A program made the position numbers and the translations under genes. A DNA stretch of 64,000 bases, from NCBI GenBank assembly GCA_030263595.1, contig SZPG01000012.1, positions 1 to 64,000 on the forward strand, written 5' to 3'. Source of the stretch: Chloroflexi bacterium CFX6. Its GTDB lineage: Bacteria > Chloroflexota > Anaerolineae > Anaerolineales > Villigracilaceae. Under the pieces are notes generated by a model. It was given only the letters and a program-made list of their open reading frames with translations. It had not been told where the DNA came from and ran no database searches. Positions within the stretch are counted from its first letter, which is position 1; every line of letters starts with the position of its first letter. Shown one piece after another: positions 5,707-38,300 of the stretch.

Positions 5707-5747
5707 ATTCCGGTTGGGAATGAGGCGGACCCATTCCCAACCGGAAT
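5707..5747 (-). terminator. 16-bp perfect hairpin after the TadE-like gene
   Basis: Arms 5707-5722 and 5732-5747 (attccggttgggaatg and its complement) with a 9-base loop lie just downstream of the stop codon at 5767. On the minus strand a short T-rich stretch follows. It probably ends the TadE transcript ahead of the glmS promoter. Confidence 0.7.
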
Positions 5748-15778: not shown

Positions 15779-15850
15779 TTGTCACCCTGAGCGTAGCGAA
15801 GGGTCTCGGTTTTCAAGGATAGAGATGCTTCGCTTCGCTCAGCATGACAT
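15779..15850. repeat. Dispersed palindromic repeat (CCTGAGCG...CGCTCAG type)
   Basis: The ends tgtcaccctgagcgtagcgaag and cttcgcttcgctcagcatgaca are near reverse complements. A second copy lies at 24771-24840, and partial arms occur near 16642, 16684 and 20358. It fills the gap between the response regulator and kinase genes. Confidence 0.8.
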
Positions 15851-28454: not shown

Positions 28455-28485
28455 ACGCCCAATTCCCGTCTTTTAGAAAAGACTA

Positions 28486-28518
28486 CCTCCCCCATCCTGA
28501 TTCACAGGATGGGGGAGG
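28486..28518. terminator. 14-bp perfect hairpin between convergent genes
   Basis: cctcccccatcctg (28486-28499) pairs with 28505-28518 around a 5-base loop. It lies between the GGDEF-EAL gene and the secreted-protein gene, which converge, so it can serve both. T-runs are short on both sides. A smaller gtcttt/aaagac palindrome precedes it at about 28469-28484. Confidence 0.75.
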
Positions 28519-28571
28519 TTCGCTTTATGAACTTGTTTTCTTTCGAACTGCCTGGATGATGACCCCCAAGA

Positions 28572-32727: not shown

Positions 32728-33423
32728 ATGAAAAAGACCCTCACGCTCCTCCTGCTGACCACATTGCTTGCCGGTTGCGCCGGATTCGAACTGCCCGATC
32801 TCACCCAGCTTCTGACCACTCCCACCATACCTGTCCCTGCGGATACCGCCACGCCCCAACCGACCGTCACCCGCATCCCCACCCGCGACCTGTTCGCCGT
32901 TTCCACCAACACCCCCGTCACGTTTACGCCCACCCATACGCCCCTCGTGCCGGATACCCCTGCCTTCTCCACCCCGACGTTGATCCCGCTTCCCACGTTC
33001 TCGGAGCAATTCATCAACGATATGAGCAGCGTCACGTTCTTCAGCCAGAACGTGGGATTCAAGGGCATCCTGTATTCCGCCGCCACCTTGTACTGGGGCG
33101 AGGGGGCTTGCACCACGCGCAGTATCAAGATGACCGTCTTCGTTGACGACCCCGAACGCACCGACCGCGTCTACATGTTCCTGCGCCTGCGCGATAAACA
33201 GAACACGCTCAACGTCGGCGAATGGAGCGCGGGCGCGGAAATGATCAAGGTGGCGGACGGCTCCTTCAATTACAACATCGAGACGTACAACCTCCGGCGG
33301 TACTTCGCCTACAAGAACGCGTGGATCGAATACCAGTTCGTCTCGGTCAACGAGAAGAACGAGATCCTCGGGCGCACCCAACTCTACGACCGCAACCTGT
33401 CGCTGGCGAAGTGCGGACTTTGA
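32728..33423 (+). CDS. Lipoprotein B of a paralogous pair
   Basis: A 231-residue predicted lipoprotein with lipobox LLAGC, a Pro/Thr linker to about residue 85 and a C-terminal domain similar to that of lipoprotein A (RVYMFLRLRDK, EWSAGAEMIK, NAWIEYQFVSV, and a Cys in the last strand). The two genes are tandem duplicates that have diverged. I start it at 32728 for a clean signal peptide; an ATG at 32689 overlaps the preceding stop (ATGA) and could couple translation. Its 3' end overlaps the start of the sirtuin gene, suggesting one transcript. Confidence 0.78.
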   Translation: MKKTLTLLLLTTLLAGCAGFELPDLTQLLTTPTIPVPADTATPQPTVTRIPTRDLFAVSTNTPVTFTPTHTPLVPDTPAFSTPTLIPLPTFSEQFINDMSSVTFFSQNVGFKGILYSAATLYWGEGACTTRSIKMTVFVDDPERTDRVYMFLRLRDKQNTLNVGEWSAGAEMIKVADGSFNYNIETYNLRRYFAYKNAWIEYQFVSVNEKNEILGRTQLYDRNLSLAKCGL

Positions 33424-34178
33424 CCTTTCCCCCGCAACTCATCACGCTTCTTCTTCGGACCTCGAGCCTGGCTGCGCTTACAGGAGCCGGAGTCTCACAG
33501 GAGAGCGGACTCCGTACCTTTCGCGACGCGCAGGACGGATTGTGGAAGCAATATAAACCGGAAGACCTCGCCTCCCCCCAAGCCTTTGCCCGCGACCCCA
33601 AACTCGTCTGGGATTGGTACGCGTGGCGGCGCGAAGCCGTCAAAGCCGTGAGACCCAACCCCGGTCATTACGCGCTGGTGGAAATCGCGAAACGCATTCC
33701 CAACTTTACTCTCATTACCCAAAACGTGGACGGCTTGCATCAGCTTGCCGCACAGACCCTGAAGGTCTTCGAGACCTTCAGGGTCTTGGAACTGCACGGC
33801 AACATCCAACGCGTGCGCTGTTCGGAATGTTATACGTTCACGGAAACCTGGGGCGACGACGCCGAATCCGTGCCGCGCTGTGAAATCTGCGGCGGCTTGC
33901 TGAGACCGGACGTCGTCTGGTTCGGCGAGGCGCTGCCGCGCGACCAACTCGAAGCCGCGGTGGAGGCGGCGCGTTCGTGCGAGGTCTTCTTTTCGATCGG
34001 CACGTCGGGCGTGGTCCAGCCTGCCGCATCGCTGGCGTATGCCGCGCGCAACCGCGGCGCGGCGCTGGTCGAGATCAACGCCGAACCGACGCCGCTCACA
34101 CCCAAAGCGGATTACTTCTTTCAGGGCAAATCGGGGGAGATATTGCCGGAACTGGTCAAAGCGGTATGGAGTACTTGA
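33411..34178 (+). CDS. cobB: Sir2-family NAD-dependent protein deacylase with palindrome-encoded insert
   Basis: Removes acyl groups from lysines using NAD. Visible motifs are LTGAGVSQESGLRTFR, TQNVDGLHQ with the catalytic His following in LELHGN, the zinc Cys pairs CSEC and CEIC, RPDVVWFGEALP and GTSGVVQPAA. Between GLHQLAA and RVLELHG are about nine extra residues (QTLKVFETF) encoded by a perfect hairpin at 33754-33786; homologues have one or two residues there. No ATG is available: GTG at 33411 or TTG at 33420 (overlapping the upstream stop) must be used. The 255-residue length is otherwise normal. Confidence 0.88.
   Translation: MRTLTFPPQLITLLLRTSSLAALTGAGVSQESGLRTFRDAQDGLWKQYKPEDLASPQAFARDPKLVWDWYAWRREAVKAVRPNPGHYALVEIAKRIPNFTLITQNVDGLHQLAAQTLKVFETFRVLELHGNIQRVRCSECYTFTETWGDDAESVPRCEICGGLLRPDVVWFGEALPRDQLEAAVEAARSCEVFFSIGTSGVVQPAASLAYAARNRGAALVEINAEPTPLTPKADYFFQGKSGEILPELVKAVWST
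33754..33786. repeat. Perfect 15-bp palindrome inserted in the sirtuin coding sequence
   Basis: agaccctgaaggtct (33754-33768) and its exact complement (33772-33786) enclose tcg. The total of 33 bases is a multiple of three, so the frame is kept. It encodes the extra residues just before the catalytic LELHG motif. Confidence 0.9.
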
Positions 34179-34179
34179 T

Positions 34180-35670
34180 CTACTTCAACACCACCCCGCT
34201 CCTCGCGGGGATGGTGAACCTGAGCCGCTCGTCAACCTTGATGTCCGACGCTTTGCCAAAGACCGGGCTCGGCACCCTCTTCGCTTCATGCGTGACGTGA
34301 ACCTGCTGAGGCGAATCCGATACATTGACCGCCACGACGAACGTCCTCCCGTTGAGCGAGCGCGAGAACGCGTACGTGCCATTCGCAGACCACAATCGCT
34401 TGAAGTCGCCGCGCCGCAGGGCGGGATTCTTTTTGCGAAGCGCGATCAATTCCTTCACGTAGCCCAGCAGACCCTTGTCCCATTTGCTTTCCTCCCACGG
34501 GAAGGACTTGCGGCAATCGGGATCGTGCTGACCGTCCACGCCGATCTCATCGCCGTAATAGACGCACGGCGCGCCGGGGTAGGTGAACATGAAGAGCCAC
34601 GCCAGTTTGAGCGAATCCTTGTTCCTGCTGACGCACGAGAGGAAACGCGGCGTGTCATGACTGTCGAGCAGGTTCAATTGCGAGTAGGTGATGTCCTGTT
34701 TGTAAAGCCCCAGGTTGTGGTCAATGCGGTCGGCGAATTCGTGCGCGTCAATGGCGTGATGGATCCCGTGATAGTTCGATTGTTGATGGACAACCTTCAG
34801 GTCGAGGTGTTTCCCGCCAAAAAAGGCGATGACCGGTTTGGTCACGTCGTAGTTCATGATGGCGTCGAACTGATCGCCCTGCAGCCAGCGCCGCGACTCG
34901 TGCCAGATCTCCGCCACGATGTAGGCTTCCGGGTTGATCTTCCGCACGCGCTGGCGGAACTCCTGCCAGAAGGCATCGTCGTCAATTTCCGTTGCAACGT
35001 CCAACCGCCAGCCGTCCGCGCCGAATTTGATCCAGTGTTCCGCGACCCCCAACAGGAACTCGCGCGCTGCGGGCGAATTTGTGTTGAATTTGGGCAGGGC
35101 GGGGAGGTTCCACCAGCCGCGATACCCGATGGCGGTCAGGCTGTCCTCGCCGTGCTGCAATGCCTTGAGTTCGTGTGGACCGGGATACGCGCCCCAATGT
35201 TTTTTCCCTGCCAGGCGTTCGGGGTCGAAGTGGAACCAGTCCTTGTAGGGTGATCCGTCGCCGCATTCCAACACGTGATGGAACTGCCAGAAGCCGCGCG
35301 AGGCGTGGTTGAACACGCCGTCCAGAACCACGCGCATATTTTTCCTGTGTGCCTTGTCGAGCAGGAATCGAAGCGCATCGTTCCCGCCCAGCAGCGGATC
35401 AACCGCGTAATAATCGAAGGTGTGGTAGCGGTGATTCGAAGCGGAGGCAAATATCGGGTTGAGATAAAGAGCCGTGATTCCCAAATCCTTCAGGTAATCC
35501 AGTTTTTCCGCGATGCCGTACAAGTCGCCGCCCTTGAATCCGTGCACGGTGGGCGGCGAGTCCCAGGGTTCGAAGGGTAAATTACTTGCAGGGTTGCGCG
35601 GGCTTTTTGCAAAACGATCCGGGAAGATTTGATAGAAGACAGCGTCTTGTACCCAGTCTGGTGTGGTCAT
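34180..35670 (-). CDS. Cytoplasmic GH13 glucosidase (neopullulanase/cyclomaltodextrinase-like)
   Basis: Hydrolyses alpha-glucans or maltodextrins. A 496-residue protein without signal peptide. The four conserved regions are visible: GVFNHASRGF, DGWRLDVA with the nucleophile Asp, VAEIWH with the acid Glu, and LLDSHDTPR with the third Asp. The start WVQDAVFYQIFPDRFAKS and the HTFDYYAVDPLLGG segment are typical of the neopullulanase branch, though the extra N-terminal dimerisation domain is missing. It is 24 bases downstream of the secreted amylase gene and belongs to the maltodextrin locus, where it would process imported oligosaccharides. Confidence 0.92.
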   Translation of the reverse strand: MTTPDWVQDAVFYQIFPDRFAKSPRNPASNLPFEPWDSPPTVHGFKGGDLYGIAEKLDYLKDLGITALYLNPIFASASNHRYHTFDYYAVDPLLGGNDALRFLLDKAHRKNMRVVLDGVFNHASRGFWQFHHVLECGDGSPYKDWFHFDPERLAGKKHWGAYPGPHELKALQHGEDSLTAIGYRGWWNLPALPKFNTNSPAAREFLLGVAEHWIKFGADGWRLDVATEIDDDAFWQEFRQRVRKINPEAYIVAEIWHESRRWLQGDQFDAIMNYDVTKPVIAFFGGKHLDLKVVHQQSNYHGIHHAIDAHEFADRIDHNLGLYKQDITYSQLNLLDSHDTPRFLSCVSRNKDSLKLAWLFMFTYPGAPCVYYGDEIGVDGQHDPDCRKSFPWEESKWDKGLLGYVKELIALRKKNPALRRGDFKRLWSANGTYAFSRSLNGRTFVVAVNVSDSPQQVHVTHEAKRVPSPVFGKASDIKVDERLRFTIPARSGVVLK

Positions 35671-35694
35671 TGTCGTTTGCCTCTTTGAGTGGAG

Positions 35695-37320
35695 TTAGGG
35701 TTGGAATTTTACTATGAACGTGGAGTAGGGCGGGAGTTCGGTCATGGGTTCGTAATTCTCGAAGACGCCTCGCGTCGCCTGCGGACCTTGCGCCTGCGCG
35801 TCCCCAAATACTGTTTCCACGCTGTAGGTTTTATCCGCCAAAACCGCGTCCCGAAGCGTCAGCCCGTAATCGTCAACGGGTTGATCGCTGAGATTGACGA
35901 TCACGAGGAGGATCTCACCCTCGTCCACGCGGAGCGCGGCGAACACGTTCGGGCTGTCCGACTTGACCGTATGGTATGCCCCCGCGCGCAGGGCGGAATG
36001 TTTCCCCCGCAACTGGATCAGCGCGCGATAGTGCGAAAGCAGGGAGTTCGGATCGTTCGTTTGCGATGCGACGTTGATCTCTGTAAAGTTCCCGTCCGGG
36101 GCGCGCCAGGGACTGCCTGTGGTGAAGCCCGCGTTCGCTTCCGCGTTCCATTGCATCGGGCGGCGGATGTTCTCGTCGGGTTTGCGCCCCTCCATGCCGA
36201 TCTCCTCCCCGTAGTAGATGAACGGGGTGCCTGGCGAGGCGAGCAGGAGCGAGGCGGCAACTTTGGCTTTGTTCACGTCGCCTCTCAGTTCGGACATGAT
36301 TCGATCCTGGTCGTGGTTGGTCAGGAAGGGGGCGTATTGATCCGCATCCAGGATCTTTTCGCTCAGTTCCAGGGCGCGGTTGACGTAGGAGGCGCTTCCG
36401 GAATTTGCCGAACTGAGGAAGGCGTTTGCCAGTTGAAAATTGAACGCCATGTCGAATTGTTTGTCGTTGACATACCCGGCGATGGAATTCATGTCGTTGC
36501 CGAAGAGTTCGCCCACAGCCAGGGCTTCAGGATCGAGGGATTTGTAGGCGGGGTAGAAATTCTCCCGCAGCCACTTGTGGGTGGATTGGGTATTTTCCTG
36601 CAGGCTCTGTTCTTCGATCAGGTGCTTGATGGCGTCCATGCGGAATCCATCCACGCCGATTTCGGAGAGCCAGAACGCCATGACCTTCTCGATTTCCTTC
36701 GTCACCTCGCGGTTGTTGAAATTCAGGTCGGGCATGTTTTGAGTGAAGATGCCGTAATAGAAGCCCGTTGTGGAGGAATGCCAGACGCGTTCGTTCCACG
36801 GTCCCTTGTAGCCCGGGTCGGTTTCGCTCCAGACGTACCAATCGCGGTATTTGGAGTTGACGTCCCTTTTTGCGTTCCTGAACCACGGATGCTGGTCGGA
36901 GGTGTGGTTGATGACCAGATCAATGATGACGCGGACGCCGCGCTTGTGCGCTTCATCGAGCAGCCGCTCGAAGTCGTCCATCGTCCCGTATTGCGGGTTG
37001 ACGCCGTAATAGTCGGTCACGTCGTAGCCGTGATAGGAGGGGGAGGGGAAGATGGGCATGAGCCAGATGCCGGTCACGCCCAGGTCGGTGGTTGTGTTTG
37101 GATCGCCGTCGTTGAGGTAATCGAGTTTTTGGGTGACGCCATTGAAGTCGCCGATGCCGTCGCCGTCGCTGTCGTAGAACGAACGGACGAAGATCTCGTA
37201 GAAGACCGCGTCGCTCCACCAGGGGGAATCGGCCGGGGCGGTGGAAATTTCCGTCGAGGCGGCAGGCAGGCACGAGGTCAGGAGGGAGGCGAGGAGTAGG
37301 AGGAGGATCAGTTTACGCAT
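35695..37320 (-). CDS. GH13 alpha-amylase-type lipoprotein
   Basis: Extracellular glucan hydrolase. The signal ends in lipobox LLTSC, so the enzyme is lipid-anchored. Catalytic regions are DLVINHTSD, GFRMDAIKH with the nucleophile, VGELFG with the acid, and FLTNHDQDRI. The central part (WWSDAVFYEIFVRSFYDSDGDG in outline) resembles GH13 subfamily 36-type amylases. The start is 37320 (weak GGAT before it) or 37329; neither has a good ribosome site. The gene begins directly after a terminator hairpin, so it is set apart from the transporter genes although facing the same way. Length 541 residues. Confidence 0.92.
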   Translation of the reverse strand: MRKLILLLLLASLLTSCLPAASTEISTAPADSPWWSDAVFYEIFVRSFYDSDGDGIGDFNGVTQKLDYLNDGDPNTTTDLGVTGIWLMPIFPSPSYHGYDVTDYYGVNPQYGTMDDFERLLDEAHKRGVRVIIDLVINHTSDQHPWFRNAKRDVNSKYRDWYVWSETDPGYKGPWNERVWHSSTTGFYYGIFTQNMPDLNFNNREVTKEIEKVMAFWLSEIGVDGFRMDAIKHLIEEQSLQENTQSTHKWLRENFYPAYKSLDPEALAVGELFGNDMNSIAGYVNDKQFDMAFNFQLANAFLSSANSGSASYVNRALELSEKILDADQYAPFLTNHDQDRIMSELRGDVNKAKVAASLLLASPGTPFIYYGEEIGMEGRKPDENIRRPMQWNAEANAGFTTGSPWRAPDGNFTEINVASQTNDPNSLLSHYRALIQLRGKHSALRAGAYHTVKSDSPNVFAALRVDEGEILLVIVNLSDQPVDDYGLTLRDAVLADKTYSVETVFGDAQAQGPQATRGVFENYEPMTELPPYSTFIVKFQP

Positions 37321-37333
37321 GCGTTTCATCCGT

Positions 37334-37361
37334 AAAAAAAGGGCGGTCATGCGGACCGCCC
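37334..37361 (-). terminator. Rho-independent terminator after the maltodextrin transporter genes
   Basis: An 8-bp GC-rich stem, gggcggtc (37341-37348) with gaccgccc (37354-37361), followed on the minus strand by seven T. It lies 19 bases after the permease stop and ends only a few bases before the amylase start. Confidence 0.9.
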
Positions 37362-37379
37362 TGGTCGGTTTTGGCGTCC

Positions 37380-38300
37380 CTACCCCTTGACGCTTCCGAG
37401 CGTCAAGCCCGAGATCAGCCATTTCGACGAGTACAGGAACAGGATCATCACAGGGATGGCGATCAGCACCGAGGCGGCGGAGAATTGTCCCCAGGCAACG
37501 GTGAACTGCTGGGCGTAGGTGAAAATGCCCAGGGGCCAGGTGTAGATATCGTTCTTTTGGAGGACGACGCGCGCCACGAGGTATTCGCTCCAGCCGCCCA
37601 TGAAACTAAAGAGGAAGGCGATGGCAAGCGCGGGCGTGGAGAGCGGCAGGATGATGCGGGTGAAGACGGTGAAACGGTTGGCGCCGTCAATGAGCGCGGC
37701 TTCTTCGAGGTCTACAGGGATGGTGTCGTAGTAGCCTTTGAGCGTCCAGATGGTGAGCGGAACGGTGCTGACCGAGTAGGCGATGATCAAGCCGAGGGCG
37801 GTGTTGATCATTTGGAGCTGCGCCAGCATGATGAAGAGCGGGAGGAGCAACATGCCGGCGGGGATCATCTGCGTCGTGAGCAGGAAGACCAGCCCGACGG
37901 CGCGCCCTGGAAATTTGAAGCGCGAGAAGGCGTAGGCGCTGATCGCCGCCAGGATCATGCTGATGATGGATGTGACCGAAACGATGGAGAACGAGTTCCA
38001 GATCCACAGGAAGAAATCGGATTTGCGGTTCTTCTCGGGCGCGCCGAATAGCACTTCCTTGTAATTATCGAGGGTGGCGTTTTCGGGGATGATGCGCAGG
38101 CTGGTGGTAAGCAGGGTGTCGTTGGGACGCAGCGAGATGGTCACGACGCGCAGAACGGGGTAAACGGCAATGATCGAAGCGACGATCAGCGTGGCGTGGA
38201 TCAGGATGGTTTTGAAGGGACTGTCGCCGCGGCTGCGCACGAAGAACCAGCGCAGGGCTTTGGTCACGGGCGATACGGGTTTGGATGTTGTCGAGTTCAT
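37380..38300 (-). CDS. malG: Maltodextrin ABC transporter permease, MalG type
   Basis: One of two membrane subunits of a sugar importer. A 306-residue protein with six membrane segments and the ATPase-contact (EAA) loop EEAALIDGANRFTVFTRIILP. The C-terminus GLTLGSVKG is the usual MalG ending. It starts 12 bases after malF and is the last gene of the transporter operon, closed by a terminator. Specificity for maltodextrin is inferred from the adjacent amylases and the MalE-like binding protein. Confidence 0.93.
   Translation of the reverse strand: MNSTTSKPVSPVTKALRWFFVRSRGDSPFKTILIHATLIVASIIAVYPVLRVVTISLRPNDTLLTTSLRIIPENATLDNYKEVLFGAPEKNRKSDFFLWIWNSFSIVSVTSIISMILAAISAYAFSRFKFPGRAVGLVFLLTTQMIPAGMLLLPLFIMLAQLQMINTALGLIIAYSVSTVPLTIWTLKGYYDTIPVDLEEAALIDGANRFTVFTRIILPLSTPALAIAFLFSFMGGWSEYLVARVVLQKNDIYTWPLGIFTYAQQFTVAWGQFSAASVLIAIPVMILFLYSSKWLISGLTLGSVKG

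Follow-up and report, generated by a model that had tools for sequence, protein, structure and literature searches.

The 33-bp palindrome lodged in a sirtuin gene of the window (i.e., the whole stretch of 64,000 nucleotides analysed here, from Chloroflexi bacterium CFX6) is most probably, at roughly 0.8, a REPIN-like, non-autonomous mobile element found in a lineage of the Chloroflexota (Anaerolineales) and mobilised by a RAYT-type HUH transposase. The following observations were made: (i) the hairpin belongs to a dispersed family; (ii) its copies are present in some genomes and absent from others at orthologous loops; (iii) they are read in frame; (iv) their arms pair; and (v) they are associated with RAYT-like genes. 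In mechanistic terms, a single-strand HUH transposase of the RAYT kind probably recognises the hairpin and would copy or paste it to new sites, presumably by single-stranded insertion.

The sirtuin gene and its lengthened loop

The features of the window on which the analysis is centred are the following:

33420 to 34178, plus strand: Sir2-family gene (sirtuin); Pfam SIR2 (PF02146), 1.6e-49
33754 to 33786, no strand assigned: 33-bp palindromic element, 11 codons (QTLKVFETFRV); recognised as a hairpin, by its fold and by a score of 54 bits with covariance model R1, a model partly built from this sirtuin copy
33754 to 33768, plus strand: left arm AGACCCTGAAGGTCT, a quasi-palindrome (AGACC..GGTCT), from the inverted-repeat reading
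33772 to 33786, plus strand: right arm AGACCTTCAGGGTCT, from the inverted-repeat reading

The sirtuin gene probably starts at a TTG codon that would overlap the stop codon of the upstream gene, and its own stop codon lies at 34176-34178. Its product covers positions 1-180 of the 180 of the PF02146 profile, that is, a full Sir2 domain, and the GAG, NVD and HG motifs are present and correspond to invariant columns in a 38-sequence alignment. The palindrome, AGACCCTGAAGGTCT-TCG-AGACCTTCAGGGTCT, consists of two 15-nt arms, 100% complementary, around a 3-nt loop. An earlier note on this DNA had described a perfect 15-bp hairpin of 33 bases in total which keeps the reading frame, and both statements are borne out, as the arms are perfect and the Sir2 ORF runs stop-free through them.

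The peptide encoded by the hairpin is located between GLHQLAA and LELHG. The "about nine residues" first estimated came close: the 11 codons replace the 4 loop residues of relatives, which makes the loop 7 residues (21 bp) longer and the spacing from LH to LHG 17 residues. The element ends 4 residues ahead of the LHG histidine, which we take to be catalytic; of the initial idea of a lengthened loop beside the active site, the lengthening stands, and the closeness to the active site stands as a distance of 4 residues along the sequence. In an AlphaFold2 model of the sirtuin (mean pLDDT 91.9), the insert corresponds to residues 111-121 and is predicted to run from the end of a helix (105-112), through a loop, into a strand (120-123). 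The closest solved sirtuins by sequence are the Sir2Af1 structures (PDB 1ici, 4twi, 1m2n; 239-241 bits, residues 6-248 of 251), with which the window sirtuin aligns nearly end to end, but a 7-residue gap opens in these alignments exactly at the element.

The sirtuin loop among relatives

The loop was surveyed in 85 sirtuins, which comprised the best 80 loci of a genome-collection scan (the named relatives among them are Chloroflexi/Anaerolineales MAGs) and 5 loci from viral contigs. The LH-LHG spacing is exactly 10 residues in 84 of these 85 sirtuins, including the five viral ones, and the lone exception is a Gemmatimonadetes MAG (L145) with an 18-residue loop. Judged by its loop length, the latter is a single, partial case of the insert in distant relatives which the earlier note had named as contrary to its reading. 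The R1 model, searched against 25 of those 80 loci, gave one copy (L114), located 3.5 kb from its sirtuin.

Among 61 genomes (the window's own genome, hereinafter G000, and 60 relatives), the sirtuin protein search yielded matches in 51, and the 30 best loci were read. The alignment with relatives agrees with an insertion: (i) 26 of the 30 orthologous loci have no insert and a 10-residue loop; (ii) in G001, whose sirtuin is 95% identical, the same 33 bp are found, unchanged, at the same loop; and (iii) in G004 and G031 (the latter from another genus of the same family), hairpins with different arms occupy the same loop, which reaches 21 residues. Between G000 and G001, the 240 sirtuin codons outside the insert show a dS of 0.178, a dN of 0.026 and a dN/dS of 0.147 (a rough estimate, from this single genome pair), and the gene outside the insert is under purifying selection. 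None of the 11 insert codons has changed between both genomes, while the flanking coding DNA is 94% identical. In the sirtuin, the element would have landed in the loop that connects the helix with NVDGLH to the strand with VLELHG; the landing would predate the split between G000 and G001 and may well have been functionally near neutral. As a separate observation, in the sirtuin of G009 (L031) the stretch RTLRRGSVQAGK, close to the N-terminus, includes 8 additional residues, perhaps a second-site repeat element in the sirtuin gene.

A dispersed family of hairpins

The covariance model R1, made from nine copies in both orientations, finds 36 related places in the own genome (E<0.02), and the sirtuin palindrome is one member of a dispersed family, albeit one of modest size for a REP family. 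The arm consensus, AGACCCTAAAGGTYT, is a 15-nt quasi-palindromic repeat which occurs in two inverted copies spaced by ~3, ~33 or ~65 nt, giving units of 33, 63 and 95-97 bp. The 33-bp form is the commonest (21 of the 36 own places), a predominance which is biased because R1 was built from 33-bp copies. Likewise, R1 copy numbers are lower bounds because not all first-look candidates were scored with the model (150 of 1148 in the own genome; 116 per genome in the 61-genome search and 23 per genome in the phylum-wide one). Matches at E<=0.01 were obtained in 47 of the 61 genomes and, phylum-wide, matches at E<=1e-4 in at least 24 of 301 genomes, 16 of those 24 in the window's own family.

Regarding the pairing of the arms, 97.2% of the arm cells pair in 45 copies, a figure inflated by preselection, since these copies were drawn from 77 gathered with a rule that demanded at least 12 of 15 paired positions. 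Two-sided changes occur at 11 of the 15 pairs; none of 500 shuffles reached an arm covariation as high, and slid controls were far lower. The orthologous copies in an ABC transporter provide an example of a compensated pair: AGACCC..GGGTCT in G000 versus AGTCCC..GGGACT in G001.

The flanks of the 77 copies showed no target-site consensus and no GTAG/CGTC tag at the foot of the hairpin (among the 154 flanks, the commonest tetranucleotide, AAAA, appears in 6). At the loops, target-site duplications are not discernible, and the host loop residues differ between genomes. In a scan of the own genome for arms, nearly all of them pair within ~100 bp, the few exceptions being single arms in C133 and C81. 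Single sites of the uptake type were discarded: the half-site GACCTTCAGGGTC has 3 exact matches in the own genome, all of them inside palindromes of the family.

Copies inside other proteins

From the 32 own-genome ORFs of at least 120 aa that lie over copies, 20 were run against Pfam, plus the sirtuin. Six of the 36 places are clearly within Pfam-domain proteins: the sirtuin, HsdR (twice), the FAD subunit of a molybdopterin dehydrogenase of the xanthine dehydrogenase (XDH) type, where the copy sits between its two domains, the ATPase of an ABC transporter, and LeuRS, whose 34-bp copy is read in another frame just ahead of the anticodon domain. The other own copies are upstream of likely starts, in domainless frames or unscanned, and were not counted as intragenic. 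Other genomes also have intragenic copies: in PrmA, an M20 peptidase, aconitase, HsdR and HsdM in G014; and in a VTT-domain protein and an ABC transporter in G001.

The usual encoded peptide is (E/Q/K)TLKVS(E/Q/K)TFRV; peptides of the TLKV..TFRV type are found in the sirtuin, XDH FAD subunit, ABC, HsdR, PrmA, M20 and VTT proteins, and an altered one (TLNASETFRV) in aconitase. The consensus DNA has stops in two of its three frames and one open frame (two in the window variant, with G for A in the arm), and, with that one stop-free frame, some landings in tolerant loops would keep the gene alive.

Seven further loop sites were compared in 11 genomes, dropping matches with less than 55% identity before the loops were counted. 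Filled and unfilled states coexist among relatives in these proteins, with the exception of the ABC transporter, in which both compared genomes are filled. In particular: (i) the XDH loop is filled in G000, G001 and G005, with differing arms; (ii) the LeuRS loop in G000 and G004; (iii) the PrmA loop in G001 and G014; and (iv) the M20 loop in G014 (33 bp) and G016 (63 bp). Sirtuin included, significant hairpins (<=3 of 300 mononucleotide shuffles equal) are present in 26 of 79 loops, or in 18 of 71 after excluding the discovery genome of each site, versus control windows with 0 of 86 beside the loops and 1 of 210 elsewhere in the sirtuin loci. Of the 26 hairpins, 17 belong to the AGACCC family and 9 have other sequences; 2 of these 9 are weak (aconitase in G007, sirtuin in G019) and may be due to chance. 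The net change in length differs by site, host residues vary or are missing around the element, and some unfilled loops (M20, aconitase and others) vary in length anyway.

Two histories can account for this distribution. A single ancestral insertion per loop, which most lineages would since have lost through decay or deletion, is an unlikely though serious candidate: at the XDH, LeuRS, PrmA, M20 and HsdR sites, two or more genomes have a copy, and the variable loops of unfilled genomes could be decayed copies. Nevertheless, element-free sirtuin loops keep the 10-residue length found across phyla (84 of the 85 surveyed), so that losses would need to restore that length repeatedly; the arms differ among filled copies and so, in cases such as the 63-bp M20 copy of G016, does the length; and some loops hold palindromes of other sequence. 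Of the two, repeated landing in the same loops is preferred to a single old event with later losses, albeit not proven.

Some loci merit separate mention. The aconitase loop that carries an AGACCC element in G014 is occupied in the own genome (L288, C129:72449-73793) by a palindrome with a different sequence, and this hairpin resembles the one beside an own Y1_Tnp gene (L053). The hsd restriction-modification cluster of G014 (L199, G014:C17:125500-136000) gathers 10 copies in ~6 kb, four of them with near-identical flanks and 127-129 bp apart (i.e., tandem repeats), together with a RAYT gene and the copies within HsdM and HsdR. In the own genome, the HsdR frame (L004/L010/L219, C36:20800-23200) contains two elements and a GIY-YIG domain.

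The RAYT-like gene as candidate mobiliser

The candidate mobiliser of the own genome, P0002, is a 224-aa RAYT-like gene on contig C36, which neighbours the hsd cluster and HsdR. It has 95-bp elements on both sides and one more inside the gene, in frame. The Pfam search for Y1_Tnp missed it, as P0002 does not match this Pfam model, and it was found on reading the hsd cluster of C36; its best NCBIfam match is REP_Tyr_transpos (REP-associated tyrosine transposase), with 43 bits for a cut-off of 80. The motifs NHFH and YIHQNP are common to the 7 close P0002 homologues aligned, and would correspond to the HUH motif and the catalytic tyrosine of RAYT proteins. The Y1_Tnp genes that Pfam did find (5 own loci) were rejected as mobilisers, with no element within 1.5 kb.

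Matches to P0002 at E<=1e-10 occur in 25 of the 61 genomes. The nine closest homologues found are those of G000, G014, G020, G010, G025, G008, G018, G041 and G004, with identities of 67-100% in eight of them; the gene of G004 is broken, its pieces being 65-72% identical. All nine have same-armed hairpins (0-2 mismatches) adjoining the gene. Full hairpins are found on both sides in seven; G020 has one side plus a single arm, and G008 one side plus one inside the gene; the other flank of the latter runs into the start of the contig and has no hairpin (L232).

Hairpins also accompany 16 of the 18 more distant RAYT loci, mostly with other sequences (for instance, AGACCTGACAGGT, AGACATGACATGTCT, AGACTTCCGAAGTCT and AAGTGACAGTCACTT), while two loci (L243 and L246) have no hairpin at all. 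The arm scan of these 18 loci gave one weak arm (G009), and weak R1 matches (L237, 23.9 bits; L244, 19.0; L240, 18.3; L247, 15.0) make the division between "same" and "other" arms not sharp. An intact ORF with both motifs is present in 24 of the 27 RAYT loci, 17 of which have hairpins on both sides; and hairpin density is 2.14 per kb within RAYT ORFs and up to 200 bp from them versus 0.21 per kb elsewhere in the same loci. Of six further loci, five have an intact RAYT-like frame and at least one hairpin nearby. An unsought cross-check came from G013, where the hairpin in the M20-peptidase loop has 16-nt arms identical to those of a hairpin beside a RAYT homologue of that genome (L248).

Six genomes (G001, G005, G006, G024, G031 and G039) have many copies (25-81 matches each, with most places counted once per strand) and give no match to the RAYT at E<=1e-10; among the 61 genomes, own genome included, copy number does not follow whether a close RAYT is present. 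For copies without a close RAYT, it must be assumed that the RAYT was lost, that assemblies are incomplete, or that another mobiliser exists. Such genomes give some room to an improbable alternative, namely, a MITE that would depend on an ordinary DDE transposase, with the 15-bp arms as terminal inverted repeats and the RAYT locus as a merely frequent landing site; the inverted arms that bound units of 33, 63 and 95-97 bp do resemble MITE ends. Nevertheless, a landing bias of a DDE transposase does not predict the same arms at 9/9 closest RAYTs together with hairpins at 16/18 distant ones, and the pairing of nearly all own-genome arms within ~100 bp (the single arms in C133 and C81 being unexplained) also speaks against it. 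Mobilisation by a RAYT-type transposase is retained as the preferred reading.

Improbable regulatory or fortuitous origin of the hairpin

The sirtuin hairpin is very stable: the RNA fold of 33745-33795 has -28.8 kcal/mol (z -4.84; 0 of 200 shuffles equal). This stability and its lack of change between G000 and G001 in the midst of diverging coding DNA are what could be expected of a regulatory RNA hairpin (attenuator, terminator, RNase site) selected in the sirtuin mRNA. Such a role is very improbable, as the hairpin is missing in 26 of the 30 orthologues read and the same element is present in unrelated genes. More specifically, an intrinsic terminator or a known RNA was rejected: there is no U-run 3' of the stem, where the sequence is TCTTGGAAC, and Rfam gave no match to the element in the two own-genome loci searched. 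Ordinary loop-length variation plus a chance palindrome, to which the loop position in the AlphaFold2 model and the variable length (L145) lend a minimum of plausibility, was discarded in view of the separate loop-hairpin test (0 of 300 shuffles as good), the 36 dispersed places and the same arms beside RAYT genes.

Comparison with known systems

According to the sources consulted, a REPIN consists of two REPs in inverted orientation and is duplicated by a RAYT (PMC8049555); intragenic REPs, including some in repair genes, are known in several species, GTAG repeats have been reported from Chloroflexi, and RPE-4 and RPE-6 have been equated with CGTC REPs (PMC3733652). The TnpA-REP subclass 2.6 has a YIH[QN]NP motif and its genes are bordered by atypical structures; in other subclasses, there are members with REP insertions within the gene (PMC6006769). 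In turn, Rickettsia palindromic elements (RPE) enter genes in frame (PMC10969869, PMC3767692), and Wolbachia and Methanocaldococcus are mentioned in relation to palindromic elements (PMC2996958).

As far as these texts describe them, the family resembles REPs and REPINs in several respects: (i) it consists of dispersed, non-autonomous hairpins of two inverted quasi-palindromes (PMC3733652, PMC8049555, PMC6006769); (ii) the RAYT gene is flanked by, and sometimes contains, its own hairpins; (iii) each RAYT tends to pair with its own hairpin, and some copies are intragenic; and (iv) the YIHQNP motif of the P0002 group resembles the YIH[QN]NP of TnpA-REP subclass 2.6 (PMC6006769). Unlike the REPs and REPINs there described, the AGACCC family has no GTAG/CGTC tag, has a 15-16-bp stem with a 1-3-nt loop (33 bp in most of the copies found), and occupies in frame the same housekeeping-protein loops in several genomes, in an Anaerolineales host. 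The REP-type element colonising coding sequence that the earlier note had proposed is upheld by the 36 places, the in-frame copies and the same-armed hairpins at RAYT-like genes; its REP identity holds in the sense of REP/REPIN-like, and not of a canonical REP, for want of the tag.

The likeness to the palindromic elements of Rickettsia and Wolbachia (RPE/WPE) lies in the insertion of palindromes in frame into unrelated functional genes, with a recurrent peptide and in tolerant regions, as the portions consulted describe it (PMC10969869, PMC3767692, PMC2996958). In contrast, those sources, in the same portions, give 100-150 bp for RPEs and name no mobiliser for them, whereas the units are here mostly of 33 bp (also 63 and 95-97 bp), RAYT-like genes accompany the same arms, and the host is presumably not an intracellular member of the Rickettsiales. 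Our best reading would be that of a compact, GTAG-less, RAYT-associated palindrome which, in coding sequence, appears to behave like the Rickettsia elements. A description of the AGACCC family was not found in the literature searched, largely without subscription journals and the original RPE papers.

Significance

Palindromes that encode protein segments are known above all from Rickettsia and Wolbachia, and REPs within genes are listed for several other species (PMC3733652). Here, coding palindromes occur in a lineage of the Chloroflexota together with a candidate transposase, RAYT/hairpin pairs differ between genomes, and the same loops are filled in some of them and clean in others. The idea that proteins acquire new peptide loops through the action of a RAYT becomes testable, and natural pairs of one enzyme with and without the insertion allow the effect of 11 codons on activity and folding to be measured.

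Much more tentatively, several RAYT/hairpin pairs might work side by side in Anaerolineales and provide a lasting supply of in-frame insertions; the same loops (sirtuin, aconitase, PrmA, LeuRS, M20 peptidase, XDH) would be refilled by different families and frame-compatible lengths of 33 bp favoured, and the whole would act as a mutational engine for protein loops.

Other palindromes and genes of the window

Apart from the sirtuin hairpin, the window contains (i) a perfect 16-bp hairpin with a 9-nt loop (5707-5747) in a 118-aa ORF, possibly a further palindrome family; (ii) a perfect 15-bp hairpin with a 5-nt loop (28485-28519); and (iii) an imperfect palindrome (15780-15849) which starts with TGTCACCCTGAGCGTAGCGAAG and, in our view, resembles a further repeat family. 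Next to the sirtuin gene, on the minus strand (34180-37422), there are two large adjacent ORFs that look by eye like members of the alpha-amylase family.
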